Assembly (NCBI RefSeq): GCF_034092465.1
Contig: NZ_CP139303.1
Span: 1,640,865-1,704,864 of the forward strand
DNA from: Prochlorococcus sp. MIT 1223
GTDB lineage: Bacteria > Cyanobacteriota > Cyanobacteriia > PCC-6307 > Cyanobiaceae
DNA: 64,000 bases
Reading direction: 5' to 3'
The notes below the pieces were generated by a model. The model was given only the letters and a program-made list of their open reading frames with translations. It made no database searches and was not told where the DNA came from. Positions 19,850 through 26,468 of the stretch are shown here, one piece after another. The position numbers and the translations under genes were made by a program. The stretch's first letter is position 1; each line of letters opens with the position of its first letter.

Positions 19850-20539
19850 TTAATAACGCATCTTTATTGTTCGTGGAAGATTTTCAGTAATGACTCCTTG
19901 AGAGTCAAGAGATGGGTAATCTCTACCTACTTCGTTGCACCACCTAGCCACTTCTGGGTAAGCCCATTCAAAGATCATTTTTGTATATAGACTTTTACTT
20001 AGCCCTTCACCATGCTGAGGTGCAATACCTGCCTCTTGTCGTTGTCTTAAGGCTTCAAAAAGCAAAGTTGCGGCTGCTACCGAGACATTGAGAGATTGAA
20101 CCATCCCACGCATAGGAATATAGATTATTTCATCCATCATTTTAATAGTCTTATTATCCAGCCCCCATTTCTCTGCTCCTAAAACAAAGGCCGTAGGTAC
20201 TTTGAAATCACATTTGCGATAATCTAATGAACCTTTCTCGATACTTGTCCCAAACAAAGTGAACCCTTGATTTTTAAGATGTTTTGTTGCTGTATATATG
20301 TCCTTATGATCATGAACCTTTACCCACTTTTGACTACCTTGAGCTGTGCTATTGAATGTACTTGTTTTTCCATGGTTATTAATAGCATTAGCCTCTAAGA
20401 CTCCTACAGCATCACAACTTCTCAAGATAGCCGACAGATTATGAGGCTTCTCTACATGCTCTAGCAAAACAGTGAGATCAGCCATCCTTCGATTTAGGAC
20501 CGATTGTAATTTTAAAAAACGTTTTGTTAGAACAGGCAT
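19850..20539 (-). CDS. trmH: tRNA (guanosine-18-2'-O)-methyltransferase
   Basis: SPOUT-class enzyme methylating the ribose of G18 in the tRNA D loop. The start is taken as the ATG at 20539 (MPVLTKRFL); a TTG at 20545 is less likely. The 229-aa product shows LLEHVEKPHNLSAILRSCDA (motif 1), VLGAEKWGLDNKTI (motif 2) and GMVQSLNVSVAAATLLFEA (motif 3). A C-terminal extension after the knot matches TrmH rather than TrmL. It converges on the ABC permease gene with 28 nt between. Confidence 0.9.
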   Translation of the reverse strand: MPVLTKRFLKLQSVLNRRMADLTVLLEHVEKPHNLSAILRSCDAVGVLEANAINNHGKTSTFNSTAQGSQKWVKVHDHKDIYTATKHLKNQGFTLFGTSIEKGSLDYRKCDFKVPTAFVLGAEKWGLDNKTIKMMDEIIYIPMRGMVQSLNVSVAAATLLFEALRQRQEAGIAPQHGEGLSKSLYTKMIFEWAYPEVARWCNEVGRDYPSLDSQGVITENLPRTIKMRY

Positions 20540-20647
20540 AATCAAAATTATATATAAAGGCGAAGTCTGCTATCAGAAGCTATGTGTTTATAACTATTTT
20601 GTTAATAGTCATAAGGAATTAAGACAATTAAAGAATATATCGATATC

Positions 20648-20683
20648 TTTTAATCTTGAAATATTCGAATTTCAAGATTAAAA
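20648..20683. repeat. Perfect 15-bp inverted repeat, 6-nt loop
   Basis: TTTTAATCTTGAAAT at 20648-20662 pairs without mismatch with ATTTCAAGATTAAAA at 20669-20683 around ATTCGA. It lies between the divergent trmH and the secreted-peptide gene, 10 nt before a short upstream ORF. There is no T tract after the stem on either strand, so a standard terminator is not indicated. An operator or a stable 5'-leader hairpin is more plausible. Confidence 0.65.
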
Positions 20684-20692
20684 GGGAAAGGT

Positions 20693-20737
20693 ATGAGCAA
20701 AGAGTTAAAATTTAAAGGTGATTTAAGGTTGTTATGA
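20693..20737 (+). promoter_or_regulatory. Upstream ORF (14 codons) coupled to the next gene
   Basis: An ATG at 20693 follows a purine-rich AAAGGGAAAGG and encodes MSKELKFKGDLRLL, ending in TGA at 20735-20737. That stop overlaps the start codon of the secreted peptide gene as ATGA. The Shine-Dalgarno-like spacing and the exact overlap suggest a translated leader peptide that couples translation of the next gene. No attenuator codon run is visible, and chance cannot be excluded for so short a frame. Confidence 0.4.
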
Positions 20738-20922
20738 ACAAAATTGTACTAATGTCACCTTTTTTAATTTTATCAACACTTGCTGCTCAAGAAGCTATTG
20801 CACATATTTATGACTCAATCGGAGTTGAGGCAGGTGTTCATTCGCATCAACCTGAAAAAGCAGATAAAGCAATTAAGGATAATTGCTTTATTGACCCCAA
20901 ACTAGGCCCTATCTGCAAGTGA
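20734..20922 (+). CDS. Small secreted protein, hypothetical
   Basis: 62-aa product with a probable Sec signal peptide: MNKIVLMSPFLILSTLAAQEAIA has a basic start, a hydrophobic core and an Ala-x-Ala-like end near residue 23. The mature part is about 40 residues, rich in His, Lys and acidic residues (HIYDSIGVEAGVHSHQPEKA), with two cysteines (DNCFIDPKLGPICK) that could form a disulfide. I recognise no family. The start overlaps the stop of a 14-codon upstream ORF and an unusual 15-bp hairpin precedes it. Confidence 0.6.
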   Translation: MNKIVLMSPFLILSTLAAQEAIAHIYDSIGVEAGVHSHQPEKADKAIKDNCFIDPKLGPICK

Positions 20923-20956
20923 ACTGTATAAGAAATAGTATTAAGATTCCCTCTGA

Positions 20957-22870
20957 TTAAAACTTTTCAAGTAATAGTCTGTATCTATCGCTTGTTTCCA
21001 TTTCTTTGATAGCCGGTTGAAGCATCCTTTCATAGCAAGTCCAACTATTTAGAGACTTTGAGTTAATAGGTTCTCGTGCTTGTATATTACTTGCAGTCAT
21101 TATTTCTCGCTTACTTAGTTCAGGTTGACAATATTTATCCTCCCAATCCCAACTAAGCCATGAAATTAATTGTTTAATTTCTTCTGAAGGGTTCGAAACA
21201 AGTTTATTATAATTCAAACTATAGATTTTCTTGGGATATATAGATTTGTATTCATCCATTATTGTTTCCTGGTTAAGCAGAACTCTTGCACAATCTCTTA
21301 TTGAAGATGAATAATAATAGCTATTATTAAAATTTGCTCTAAAAATAGAAAGTATATTATCAAGTGGATGTCGATAGCAATGTATTATTCTTGCGTTAAT
21401 AAAATCATTTGCTATGTATCCTGAATAAACGTAATTAAAAAGAAATTTATCTGTTGTTATTTTGTAACCAGCAGAATATTTAGATTTTTCTTCTAAATAC
21501 ATTTTATACAAACTAAGATTATCTTCATTTTCTTTTAAACTCTCCCACTTCTTGAAAACCTTCATTAAAATATTTCTTTCGCCTAAATCTTTGACATCTT
21601 TATTTAAGCTTATAATGGATTCTAATAATGTGCTCCCACATCTAGGTAAGCCTACTATGAAAATTGAATCTACTTCCTTTTCATCTCCTTTGACATTATT
21701 TGGAGTTGCTTTATTTATTGATTGAATTGATAACTTATTGGCGTAATTAATTGCTTCGTCAGCAGTTGATGGATAGATATTAAGCTTGATCTGGTTTGCC
21801 TTTAATAAATTCTCTGCACTTTTATCAAATTTCTTCTGCTTATGTAATATATTAGACTTTGCAAAATATATCTCAGATCTTTGTATTTGGTTTTGATACT
21901 CTTTTATTTCTAATTTCAGAATCTTCGAATCCAACTCCATAGAAGAACTATGATTCTTCATTCTAGATAAATGAAAATAAGCAGATGAATTATTTTCATT
22001 TTTTTCAATGGCAGTTACTAGTGATAAAAAACCTTCTTTAATTTTTCCTTGATCAATTAGCAAGCTACCTAAATTTGAATAGGCTTCAGAAAAATCTGGA
22101 TCTATTTCAATGGCTTTTTTAATACTCACAATTGCTTCGGCTAGTCTAGATTGCTTATTTAAAATTAATCCTAGATTTGAGTGAGCAGCTGCAATATTAG
22201 GATTTATTGCAATTGCTTTTTTTATTGTAATTTCTGCCTCTAGGAAATTCCTCTTCTTAAGTAGAATTAATCCTAAATTTGAATAAGAATTATATAACAT
22301 AGGATCTAAATCTATTGATCTTCTTGTTGCTGATTCGGCTTCTTCCTGCTTGCCTTGTTCTCTATAGATAGCACCAAGATTTGCATGAGCAATTGCTATT
22401 TTGGGATTCAAATCAATTACTTTTTTTAAATAAAATTCTGCTTCCGATAGTTTTCCTTGATCCTTTAGTACCATCGATAAGTTTCCAATAGCATTAATTA
22501 AATTAGGTTTTATTTTGATTGCTTTTTTAAGGTATACTTCTGCTTGTTTGAGATCTTTTAATTCACCCAATTTAGCCCCAAGTATTGCATAAGAGTCTGC
22601 ATCTTCTGGCTTTAGCTTAATTATATTTTTCAATAACAAAATCCCTTCATTTACCTGATTAGAAGATAGGTAAATAATAGATAAATTTTTCATTACGGTT
22701 ATATTGATTATACCTAGTTTTAGGATTTCTTCGTAAATCTTTTTGGCGGCTACAATCTCACCATTCCTTTGATGCTCAGACCCTTTTTTAATTAGTGAAT
22801 TTGCAATAACTTGATTAAAATTTGATTTATTATTTGTACCTTTTCTTCTGCCTGAACTAAACCCTTTCAT
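20957..22870 (-). CDS. TPR-repeat protein with C-terminal sulfotransferase domain
   Basis: 637-aa fusion. Residues about 25-330 hold eight or more TPR units (for example AEFYLKKVIDLNPKIAIAHA and AEITIKKAIAINPNIAAAHS). The C-terminal third is a PAPS-dependent sulfotransferase: the 5'-phosphosulfate loop IVGLPRCGSTLLESI starts near residue 403, and the 3'-phosphate motif follows in IHCYRHPLDNILSIFRANF. It probably transfers sulfate from PAPS to a glycan, protein or lipid acceptor, with the TPR part binding partner or acceptor. There is no signal peptide. The porin terminator separates it from the upstream gene. The acceptor is unknown. Confidence 0.85.
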   Translation of the reverse strand: MKGFSSGRRKGTNNKSNFNQVIANSLIKKGSEHQRNGEIVAAKKIYEEILKLGIINITVMKNLSIIYLSSNQVNEGILLLKNIIKLKPEDADSYAILGAKLGELKDLKQAEVYLKKAIKIKPNLINAIGNLSMVLKDQGKLSEAEFYLKKVIDLNPKIAIAHANLGAIYREQGKQEEAESATRRSIDLDPMLYNSYSNLGLILLKKRNFLEAEITIKKAIAINPNIAAAHSNLGLILNKQSRLAEAIVSIKKAIEIDPDFSEAYSNLGSLLIDQGKIKEGFLSLVTAIEKNENNSSAYFHLSRMKNHSSSMELDSKILKLEIKEYQNQIQRSEIYFAKSNILHKQKKFDKSAENLLKANQIKLNIYPSTADEAINYANKLSIQSINKATPNNVKGDEKEVDSIFIVGLPRCGSTLLESIISLNKDVKDLGERNILMKVFKKWESLKENEDNLSLYKMYLEEKSKYSAGYKITTDKFLFNYVYSGYIANDFINARIIHCYRHPLDNILSIFRANFNNSYYYSSSIRDCARVLLNQETIMDEYKSIYPKKIYSLNYNKLVSNPSEEIKQLISWLSWDWEDKYCQPELSKREIMTASNIQAREPINSKSLNSWTCYERMLQPAIKEMETSDRYRLLLEKF

Positions 22871-22966
22871 TATTAGATAGAATACAAATTATTATTTTAT
22901 TAAAATCATGATTAAACAAGCATGATTTTAAATATAACTTATATTTCTTTTTTAAAGTCTGCCTAT

Positions 22967-23008
22967 AAAAAAACGGCTCGCTTCATATGAAGCGAGCCGT
23001 TTTTTTTT
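22967..23008 (-). terminator. Strong bidirectional Rho-independent terminator of the porin gene
   Basis: ACGGCTCGCTTCAT at 22973-22986 pairs perfectly with ATGAAGCGAGCCGT at 22987-23000. Six A on the left and eight or more T on the right extend the symmetry, so a T tract follows the stem on both strands. The porin stop codon is 7 nt away, so it should end the minus-strand porin message. Confidence 0.9.
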
Positions 23009-23014
23009 AGTTAA

Positions 23015-24355
23015 CTAGAAGGAGAAGCTAGTATTTATTGCAGCACCTCTTGTATCTTCTCTGTTGTCATATGTATCCCCTTCAATAAAGAATACGCCTG
23101 GTGTAATTGTTATGTAGTCATTCAGGTTATAAGTATAATAGAGTTCATACTGAATTTCATCTTCGTCTGCTGTGGCCTGACCAGGGCTATCGTCTTTGTC
23201 AGAGACATTGCTTATTGCGGCACTGAATGTACCAGGTCCGAATGCGATGTCTGTTCCGATTAGCCAAGCTTCAAGATCTTCAGTTGTATCTTCATCATCT
23301 TTAGTGTCATAAGTTGCGCTAACACTCCAATTTTCTGCCTGATAGTAAAGTCCACCACCTACTGCTGTGTAGCCAGTAGTAGTGTTCCCATGACCGAGGT
23401 GAGTAAATATTAGACCACCTCCAAAGTTATCGCCGTCATAGCCAAACATCGCCGTAAGGATGTCGTCAGACTCTTTTGTTCCAATTCCCTTATTCAAATC
23501 TGCAGCATCTGCTCCAATTATGCTAGCTCCAAAGTTGTAGCCACTATCAAGGGCAATTGAATAGGCAGCTCCATAGCCAGTAGTGCCAGGAAGAGTAAAT
23601 GGGTTGCCACCAAGTTTCCATGCATCTGAATAAACAGATGTTGTAACAGAAACTACATCGTCTTGGTCTAATAGTGGGCCAGCAGTAAGGGTTCCTCCCC
23701 CAAATGGGAATGAATAAAAGAGCGAACCAACATTTAGGTCGTCACTTGTATCCGACATATCCATACTGCTTAACTCACTACTGGATGCATCAAAGTTACC
23801 TTGTGCAATTCCAGCGTATAGAATATCTTCACCAGTGAAACTAGTGTTGATGTCTAGCCCATAGCCATAGAAGCCATGTACATTCTCGTACCCCTGATGC
23901 TTAGATTCATATCCTATGAGGAAATTGCTATAACCACTTAACTTTGTAGTTGTGGAGAATTGTCCTGCTTCAAAAGCTAAGTCTCCTAGGATCTCATCTG
24001 TTCCTCTTAGGATGGCAATCTCTGACTCGAACTCGTCTATTAGACGTAGCTCGGAAGCATTCAGTTTCTCAGCATTACCTATGCATTTATTTAGAATTGC
24101 CGCTGCTTCAGCTCGTGTGATGACTCCTTTAGGTAGAGATACATTGCATCCGCGATTGTTCCGAATGTCAACCAGCGCTTGAAATGTCCAATCACTTGGA
24201 TGAATGTCAGATAATTCGGAAGCGGCTTGATAAGTGTTGGTTAGTGGGGCGTAGTCAGAGATCGCCTCGATATTTAATTCGGTAGCATTTACTGCCATGG
24301 GAGCAATTAACCCCAACGCAGCAGGCGCCACCAGCAATTGCTGGAAAAGTTTCAT
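23015..24355 (-). CDS. Cyanobacterial SLH-domain outer-membrane porin
   Basis: I chose the ATG at 24355, preceded by GAGGAACCAA; the frame also has an upstream GTG at 24367. The 446-aa product has a signal peptide at about 1-24 (MKLFQQLLVAPAALGLIAP ... VNA), an SLH domain at roughly 45-92 (IHPSDWTFQALVDI ... GVITRAEAAAILNKC), a short helical linker, and a beta-barrel of alternating, Gly- and aromatic-rich strands ending in the terminal phenylalanine (TSFSF). This is the SomA/OprB-type porin of picocyanobacteria, with the SLH part binding peptidoglycan. A Fur-like box lies about 110 nt upstream and a strong terminator directly downstream, so it is probably monocistronic. Confidence 0.9.
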   Translation of the reverse strand: MKLFQQLLVAPAALGLIAPMAVNATELNIEAISDYAPLTNTYQAASELSDIHPSDWTFQALVDIRNNRGCNVSLPKGVITRAEAAAILNKCIGNAEKLNASELRLIDEFESEIAILRGTDEILGDLAFEAGQFSTTTKLSGYSNFLIGYESKHQGYENVHGFYGYGLDINTSFTGEDILYAGIAQGNFDASSSELSSMDMSDTSDDLNVGSLFYSFPFGGGTLTAGPLLDQDDVVSVTTSVYSDAWKLGGNPFTLPGTTGYGAAYSIALDSGYNFGASIIGADAADLNKGIGTKESDDILTAMFGYDGDNFGGGLIFTHLGHGNTTTGYTAVGGGLYYQAENWSVSATYDTKDDEDTTEDLEAWLIGTDIAFGPGTFSAAISNVSDKDDSPGQATADEDEIQYELYYTYNLNDYITITPGVFFIEGDTYDNREDTRGAAINTSFSF

Positions 24356-24464
24356 TTGGTTCCTCACACAAAAGAATTTGACTTATTATTGTGTTCGTTA
24401 GTTCTACTTGATGTATTTCTTGCTACTGAAACAGAAACATCCAAGCGATTGAACACATCCCAAT

Positions 24465-25145: not shown

Positions 25146-26468
25146 TTGTTGTCAAATACAAAAGGTCTGTTACCTAGACAAGGGGCTTGGGAAGTCTTGC
25201 AATCTGTAGCAGCAGGTGCTTATGCAGATGTCGCTTTAGATCGAGCTATCAAGAAGTATTCTTTGCTGGGATCTGATAGATCACTTTTAACTGAATTGGC
25301 ATATGGAGCTATCAGAAATAGATATTTGCTTGATTGTTGGATTGACTATTTAGGGAAGAAGCCAGCTAAAAAGCAGCCACCCTTATTACGATGGCTATTG
25401 CATATTGGTATTTATCAAATTATACGAATGAAAAAGATACCTGTTTCTGCAGCAATTAATACGAGTGTTGAGATTGCTAAAACAGGTAATTTAAAAAATC
25501 TTGCCCCTGTTGTTAATGGATTATTGCGTGCTGTTAACCGTGCATATATAGCAGAGATTGATCTTCCTCTACCAGAGAGTTTTCAGGCTCGTATAAGACA
25601 AGAATATTCTTTGCCTAATTGGTTGGTAGCAGAACTTATTAGCTGGTTTGGAGAAAGTCAAGCAGAGATAATTTCGAGAGCTTTTAATAATGTCCCTTCA
25701 TTTGATTTGAGAGTTAACCGTATTCGCGAGACTCCTTTTGAACTTCAAAAACAATTAGCTGAAGTAGGTATTGAGAGTTCCTTAATGCCTGATTTCCCAG
25801 ATGGGTTAAGTGTTGAAAAAGGTTTAAGAGATTTAAATCAATGGCCTGGCTACACTGAAGGTAAATGGTGTGTTCAGGATAGATCTTCACAGTGGGTTGC
25901 TCCATTGTTAGAACCACAACCAGGAGAACGTATCCTTGATGCATGTGCTGCACCAGGCTCTAAAACAACACATTTAGCTGAATTAATCGGAAATGATGGA
26001 GAAATTTGGGCAGTAGATAGATCTTTGTCTCGTTTGAAATTAGTGACTGAAAATGCAACTCGTCTAGGTACTGATTGCATAAATGTTTTAGAGGCTGATT
26101 CGTTAAAATTGTTGAATATTAGGCCAGACTGGGAGGGTTATTTTCACAGGATTTTGATAGATGCACCTTGCTCAGGACTGGGTACGCTGTCTAGGAATCC
26201 AGATGCACGCTGGCGACTAACCCCAATGAAAATTAGAGAGTTAACTCTACTTCAAGAAAAATTGCTTAAATCGATTGTTCCTTTGTTGAAACCAGGTGGC
26301 CGTATGGTCTATTCAACTTGCTCTATTCACCCAGAAGAAAACTCGCGTCAAATTGAAAGGTTCTTATCTACTTGTTCTGACATGAGTTTAAAGAAAGAAA
26401 AACAAATTTTACCTGATACGACTAGGCAAGGTGATGGCTTTTATGCCGCTATATTGGAACTTAATTAA
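25146..26468 (+). CDS. rsmB: 16S rRNA m5C967 methyltransferase (RsmB/Sun)
   Basis: SAM-dependent RNA cytosine-C5 methyltransferase. The 440-aa product has an N-terminal NusB-like RNA-binding domain (about 1-140) and a C-terminal Rossmann domain with the SAM motif DACAAPGSKTTHLAEL, the first catalytic cysteine block DAPCSGLGTLSRNPD and the second YSTCSIHPEENSRQIE. The start is a TTG at 25146 or the adjacent TTG at 25149, as no ATG fits. It converges on the PBP gene with an 8-nt overlap. Confidence 0.93.
   Translation: MLSNTKGLLPRQGAWEVLQSVAAGAYADVALDRAIKKYSLLGSDRSLLTELAYGAIRNRYLLDCWIDYLGKKPAKKQPPLLRWLLHIGIYQIIRMKKIPVSAAINTSVEIAKTGNLKNLAPVVNGLLRAVNRAYIAEIDLPLPESFQARIRQEYSLPNWLVAELISWFGESQAEIISRAFNNVPSFDLRVNRIRETPFELQKQLAEVGIESSLMPDFPDGLSVEKGLRDLNQWPGYTEGKWCVQDRSSQWVAPLLEPQPGERILDACAAPGSKTTHLAELIGNDGEIWAVDRSLSRLKLVTENATRLGTDCINVLEADSLKLLNIRPDWEGYFHRILIDAPCSGLGTLSRNPDARWRLTPMKIRELTLLQEKLLKSIVPLLKPGGRMVYSTCSIHPEENSRQIERFLSTCSDMSLKKEKQILPDTTRQGDGFYAAILELN

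Follow-up and report, generated by a model that had tools for sequence, protein, structure and literature searches.

The window analysed here is a 64,000-nucleotide stretch of Prochlorococcus sp. MIT 1223, whose genome consists of one contig of 1,795,922 bases. Within it, a 62-aa open reading frame lies between a divergent TrmH/SpoU-type methyltransferase gene and, on the other side, the genes for a TPR-sulfotransferase protein and a porin, followed further on by an rsmB-like gene (Table 1). The methyltransferase scores 222.5 bits (5.1e-66) against the NCBIfam TrmH model, for which the cut-off is 227. A perfect inverted repeat sits 49 nt before the 62-aa frame, between the divergent trmH and peptide genes. 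It is followed by a 14-codon upstream open reading frame (uORF), which is preceded by the purine-rich run GGGAAAGG and whose TGA stop falls within the ATGA that opens the 62-aa frame.

Table 1. Features of the locus in window coordinates, with further tract-free stems of the sampled genome.
Feature	Position	Strand	Evidence
TrmH/SpoU-type methyltransferase, divergent left neighbour	19850-20545	-	PF00588, 2.3e-35
Perfect 16-bp inverted repeat, loop 6 (ATTCGA), T tract on neither side	20647-20684	.	Stem search, folding, genome counts
14-codon uORF MSKELKFKGDLRLL, ATGA overlap with the start of the 62-aa ORF	20693-20737	+	ORF reading; background rates
62-aa ORF, predicted Sec-exported small protein	20734-20922	+	Ortholog L004:1447-1635
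Predicted signal peptide, residues 1-23, end AIA (AFA in ortholog)	20734-20802	+	Divergent hydrophobic segment
Predicted 39-aa mature peptide	20803-20919	+	Invariant columns of two-sequence alignment
637-aa TPR + sulfotransferase protein	20957-22870	-	Pfam TPR, Sulfotransfer_3; gene order
Porin gene, next shared neighbour	23015-24367	-	Pfam OprB at its cut-off (22.9 bits)
rsmB-like gene	25146-26468		Pfam RsmB/F
Tract-free perfect stems (14-28 bp), first four	window 20647-20684; L085 18281-18318, 19728-19774; L087 17279-17338		
Tract-free perfect stems (14-28 bp), other four	L090 8011-8057; L091 1705-1741; L094 12644-12685; L097 9593-9646		

The 62-aa frame and its ortholog

An ortholog of the 62-aa protein is encoded in G003, a same-genus genome matching Prochlorococcus sp. 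AG-402-N21, where it is flanked by genes for a TrmH-type methyltransferase and a porin. The two proteins align gap-free over 62 columns with 47% identity, rising to 62% across residues 21-62. Their frames measure 66 and 64 aa from stop to stop, which closely fixes the start. Judged by eye from this alignment, the protein has an n-h-c signal peptide with an AxA cleavage motif and a predicted cleavage site after residue 23; A21, A23 and H24 are common to both sequences. Since AxA followed by His24 is kept in both, the N-terminus points to export by the Sec route and to a mature peptide of 39 aa. The mature part starts with His and contains HxH at 36-38, Cys 51 and Cys 61, and the conserved tail KDNCFxDPKLGPICK.

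Between the window and G003, the peptide genes differ at 28, 19 and 31 sites per codon position over the whole gene, at 13, 8 and 21 in the mature part, and at 1, 0 and 8 in the last 15 codons. In the mature part dN is 0.31 and dS is saturated. The signal segment is without sign of constraint (dN 1.1, dS 0.66), and A21 and A23 are nonetheless kept, followed by His24. Read from this one sequence pair, the constraint indicates that selection acts on the encoded protein, and the combined codon-position and signal-segment pattern matches an exported protein that is processed and under selection. The 62-aa ORF is thus very probably a genuine gene, and the exported peptide of the preliminary description, which had proposed a 62-aa gene with a signal peptide and two cysteines, is supported by the ortholog, synteny, protein-level constraint and conserved cleavage motif.

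The ORF also contains a perfect 12-bp stem at 20864-20891; the ortholog's stretch of G003 (L042) has no perfect stem of at least 12 bp. The internal stem is what one would cite for an untranslated frame whose similarity has another cause, for instance a structured RNA, but the third-position substitution pattern and the gap-free frame speak against this reading, as do the missing stem in G003 and an Rfam search in which all six matches up to E 5 fell under the gathering score. We consider it very improbable.

Searches with the 62-aa protein returned only DUF2194 in Pfam (E 0.078; 11.7 bits, where the cut-off is 30.4), nothing up to E 1 in NCBIfam and nothing up to E 5 among PDB chain sequences. 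None of the titles and abstract starts examined names the peptide, and a literature search for AG-402-N21 gave no paper. The AlphaFold model is poor overall (mean pLDDT 55, pTM 0.20), with two strands at residues 51-54 and 58-61 where confidence is about 70; this modelled strand pair could bring Cys51 and Cys61 together.

Distribution and gene order

A single-sequence search of the family sample matched 4 of 400 genomes at E<=0.01: the window genome (G000), G003, G053 and G235. The G053 match, inside a 443-aa open frame, and the G235 match, in a 506-aa frame and with one stop within it, were taken as chance. The two-sequence profile matched 94 of the 400 at E<=1, and among those inspected only G000 and G003 were convincing; the next best, G185 (8.9e-4), was dismissed because it has a stop within the match and runs antisense to a 341-aa ORF, and G259 was dismissed likewise. 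In the class sample, 2 of 388 genomes matched at E<=0.005, namely G000 and, once more, G185 with the match already dismissed, leaving one convincing copy (G000). Convincing copies therefore number 2 in 400 sampled family genomes (G000 and G003), and since the two samples overlap and were both drawn from larger groups, absence elsewhere is provisional. Of two genome-contig searches, one returned nothing and the other a single locus, that of AG-402-N21 (62% over residues 21-62). No homologs were found in viral contigs or, up to E 1, in phage records. No peptide match came from G060, the genus's third genome, which is 59% complete; it also lacks a trmH match at 1e-30, so its peptide absence says little.

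The window and G003 are collinear over about 19 kb when ORFs of 60 aa and over are compared. The extra gene beside the peptide is that for the TPR-sulfotransferase, which separates the peptide and porin genes in the window and is not at that place in G003. The G003 porin counterpart (Porin_4, 1.1e-11) is 60% identical to the window porin. GC content, taken in 500-base steps, is 28-31% across 20500-23000 and 40-43% in the steps immediately outside, and falls to 32-35% again still further away; this AT-rich segment is compatible with insertion of the sulfotransferase gene, without proving it. An 18-bp stem with A and T tracts at 22967-23006, at the 3' end of the porin gene, is likely a bidirectional terminator. 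G027 has the trmH and porin neighbours and no peptide match at 1e-4. Among 30 fetched trmH flanks (up to about 1,500 bases each), the rsmB-like gene was reached in 23 and a porin in two, G003 and G027, the window porin being beyond flank reach; in all three genomes (G000, G003 and G027) the porin lies between trmH and the rsmB-like gene. From these counts, the trmH-rsmB interval is where a porin was gained or retained, as was the peptide in two genomes.

The hairpin and the upstream frame

The inverted repeat had been described as a perfect 15-bp stem. It is indeed perfect, and has 16 pairs, with arms at 20647-20662 and 20669-20684. Folding of 20640-20700 gives -18.1 kcal/mol, compared with -7.2 +/- 2.3 for shuffles. 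Stems of at least 15 bp occurred in 0 of 10 Markov-resampled windows, and perfect stems of at least 13 bp in none of five resamplings of 364 kb (the window and 15 stretches of 20 kb each), against 14 in the real sequence of the same 364 kb. Because resampled sequence holds no comparable stems, the stem is not random. Six of the 14 have T or A tracts, and the stem before the peptide gene is among the eight that do not; by the scripted tract test, the L096 stem has internal tracts and is not counted as tract-free. The seven other tract-free stems (Table 1) place it in a recurring non-random class that is not tied to the peptide gene. The outer 13-base arms of the tract-free stems have no further copy in the 364 kb, and two of the eight stems fall within open frames 80 aa or longer.

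We rejected the hairpin as a member of a repeat family, since its inner 12-bp arms plus spacer occur once in the genome at up to three mismatches. A single arm, at up to two mismatches, is found at 16 places (10 forward, 6 reverse, two of these being the stem itself) compared with 6 for the reversed control, an excess we take to reflect base composition. No intrinsic terminator was found in 20540-20960; the stem arm is 19% GC and no T run follows on either strand. A promoter scan of the same interval gave no plus-strand site and one minus-strand site (20576-20547), where shuffles expect 2.1.

These properties leave room for a tentative alternative, possible though short of an even chance: the stem could be an operator in the DNA or a palindrome produced by mutation (template switching), with any effect exerted at the level of DNA and not RNA. 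The stem is perfect, found once and placed in a divergent intergenic region, and the genome has other tract-free perfect palindromes, the two inside long open frames included. Unlike a regulon operator, however, it has no second site in the genome at up to three mismatches, an objection that leaves a mutational origin unaffected. This alternative is compatible with an incidental leader before a real gene, our preferred explanation, and the confidences given to the two overlap.

The 14-codon uORF with its exact ATGA overlap is present as first described. Regulation by uORFs or leader peptides through translational coupling makes use of an ATGA overlap and an upstream hairpin, both of which the window leader has. 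Of the resampled leaders, 3.4% contained an ATGA-ending ATG uORF of 14 codons or more, and 5.2% one of 10 codons or more. In real sequence we used 255 ORFs of at least 150 aa sampled in the window's genome, where an ATGA-ending ATG uORF of at least 14 codons, of any length, precedes 18, one of 10-40 codons precedes 11, and an ATG uORF of 10-40 codons with any kind of end, no more than 20 nt from the start, precedes 76; because starts were first ATGs and not annotated ones, some of the counted uORFs may reflect wrong starts or upstream gene ends. The uORF is not clearly beyond chance and is probably incidental.

In the leader of the G003 ortholog, we found no perfect stem of at least 12 bp (loop 3-10) and no ATGA uORF. 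The nearest ATG uORF there is ATGCATTTTTGA, with 3 codons and ending at -6, and TTG-started frames run near or across the start, none of them ending in ATGA. The upstream DNA of the two genomes is unalignable, with shared words of up to 9-10 bases only. The uORF frame with its start and stop, and the stem with compensatory changes, are thus not conserved in the one moderately distant relative compared.

With stem and uORF missing in the ortholog and the uORF rate near background, a regulated leader is not supported, and the hairpin and uORF look incidental. It is unlikely that the 5' stem and a translated uORF control the peptide gene by coupling or attenuation, even though a non-random 16-bp stem 49 nt ahead stands where a 5' UTR would be, and the ATGA overlap and the purine-rich run point the same way. 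Besides the missing conservation, uORFs of this kind are near background frequency, seven other tract-free stems occur in the sampled genome, and Rfam has no match at gathering score; compared with translational-coupling leaders, the window leader is not conserved in the one ortholog found and has no terminator-like site. The preliminary description had read the arrangement as a regulated leader, and had looked to conserved stem pairs and uORF start and stop for support; the only ortholog found offers neither, within that single moderately distant comparison.

The locus and its exported protein

The best explanation, to which we assign a probability of about 0.72, is a real lineage-restricted gene for an exported small protein with incidental leader parts. 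The product of the 62-aa gene would be Sec-exported, and hence periplasmic or secreted, and lineage-restricted; cleavage after residue 23 would yield a 39-aa peptide beginning with His, and its two Cys in the conserved C-terminal stretch may form a disulfide-closed hairpin. The gene neighbours trmH, and in the relative a porin gene adjoins it as well. The stem, a palindrome not found in the relative, would serve at most as an operator or to stabilise the mRNA at its 5' end; the uORF would be incidental, with at most mild coupling. Since the stem exceeds resampled sequence, it may have a function hidden from one distant comparison.

CopC and histidine-brace copper proteins have a mature form that starts with His and carries further His residues; copper is bound by the N-terminal His and a second His on a beta-sandwich. 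The predicted mature peptide likewise starts with His and has further His, and His24 and HxH are kept in 2 of 2 sequences. It differs in having no family match, in its much smaller size, and in being represented by two sequences only. Metal binding by the mature peptide is speculative. We think it quite improbable that the locus represents a new family of tiny exported peptides with a minimal Cu/Zn site (N-terminal His, HxH and disulfide-closed tail), encoded beside a porin and tuned in synthesis by a strain-specific hairpin leader.

The small biofilm proteins of Synechococcus elongatus have double-glycine leaders, and the 62-aa protein, with its Sec-type AxA motif, is set apart from them by description. 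These biofilm-development proteins, as they appear in the portion of PMC5126843 that cites them, resemble it in being small, secreted and cyanobacterial. The exported hypothetical proteins of marine picocyanobacteria, in the part of PMC4949707 that describes them, are like the 62-aa protein predicted to be exported, uncharacterised and lineage-restricted; the hypothetical exoproteins given there are 150-240 aa long, compared with 62 aa in the window.

In summary, the analysis separates a probably real exported-protein gene from designed-looking leader features that are near background. The leader would be of interest only if conserved in new strains, and the 39-aa peptide could be synthesised and tested at low cost. 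The 62-aa protein is probably an ordinary lineage-restricted exported small protein without a known family. According to that same part of PMC4949707, marine picocyanobacteria have lineage-specific, uncharacterised proteins more often among their exported than among their cytosolic proteins, and the lineage-specific exported ones are said to distinguish picocyanobacteria from one another.
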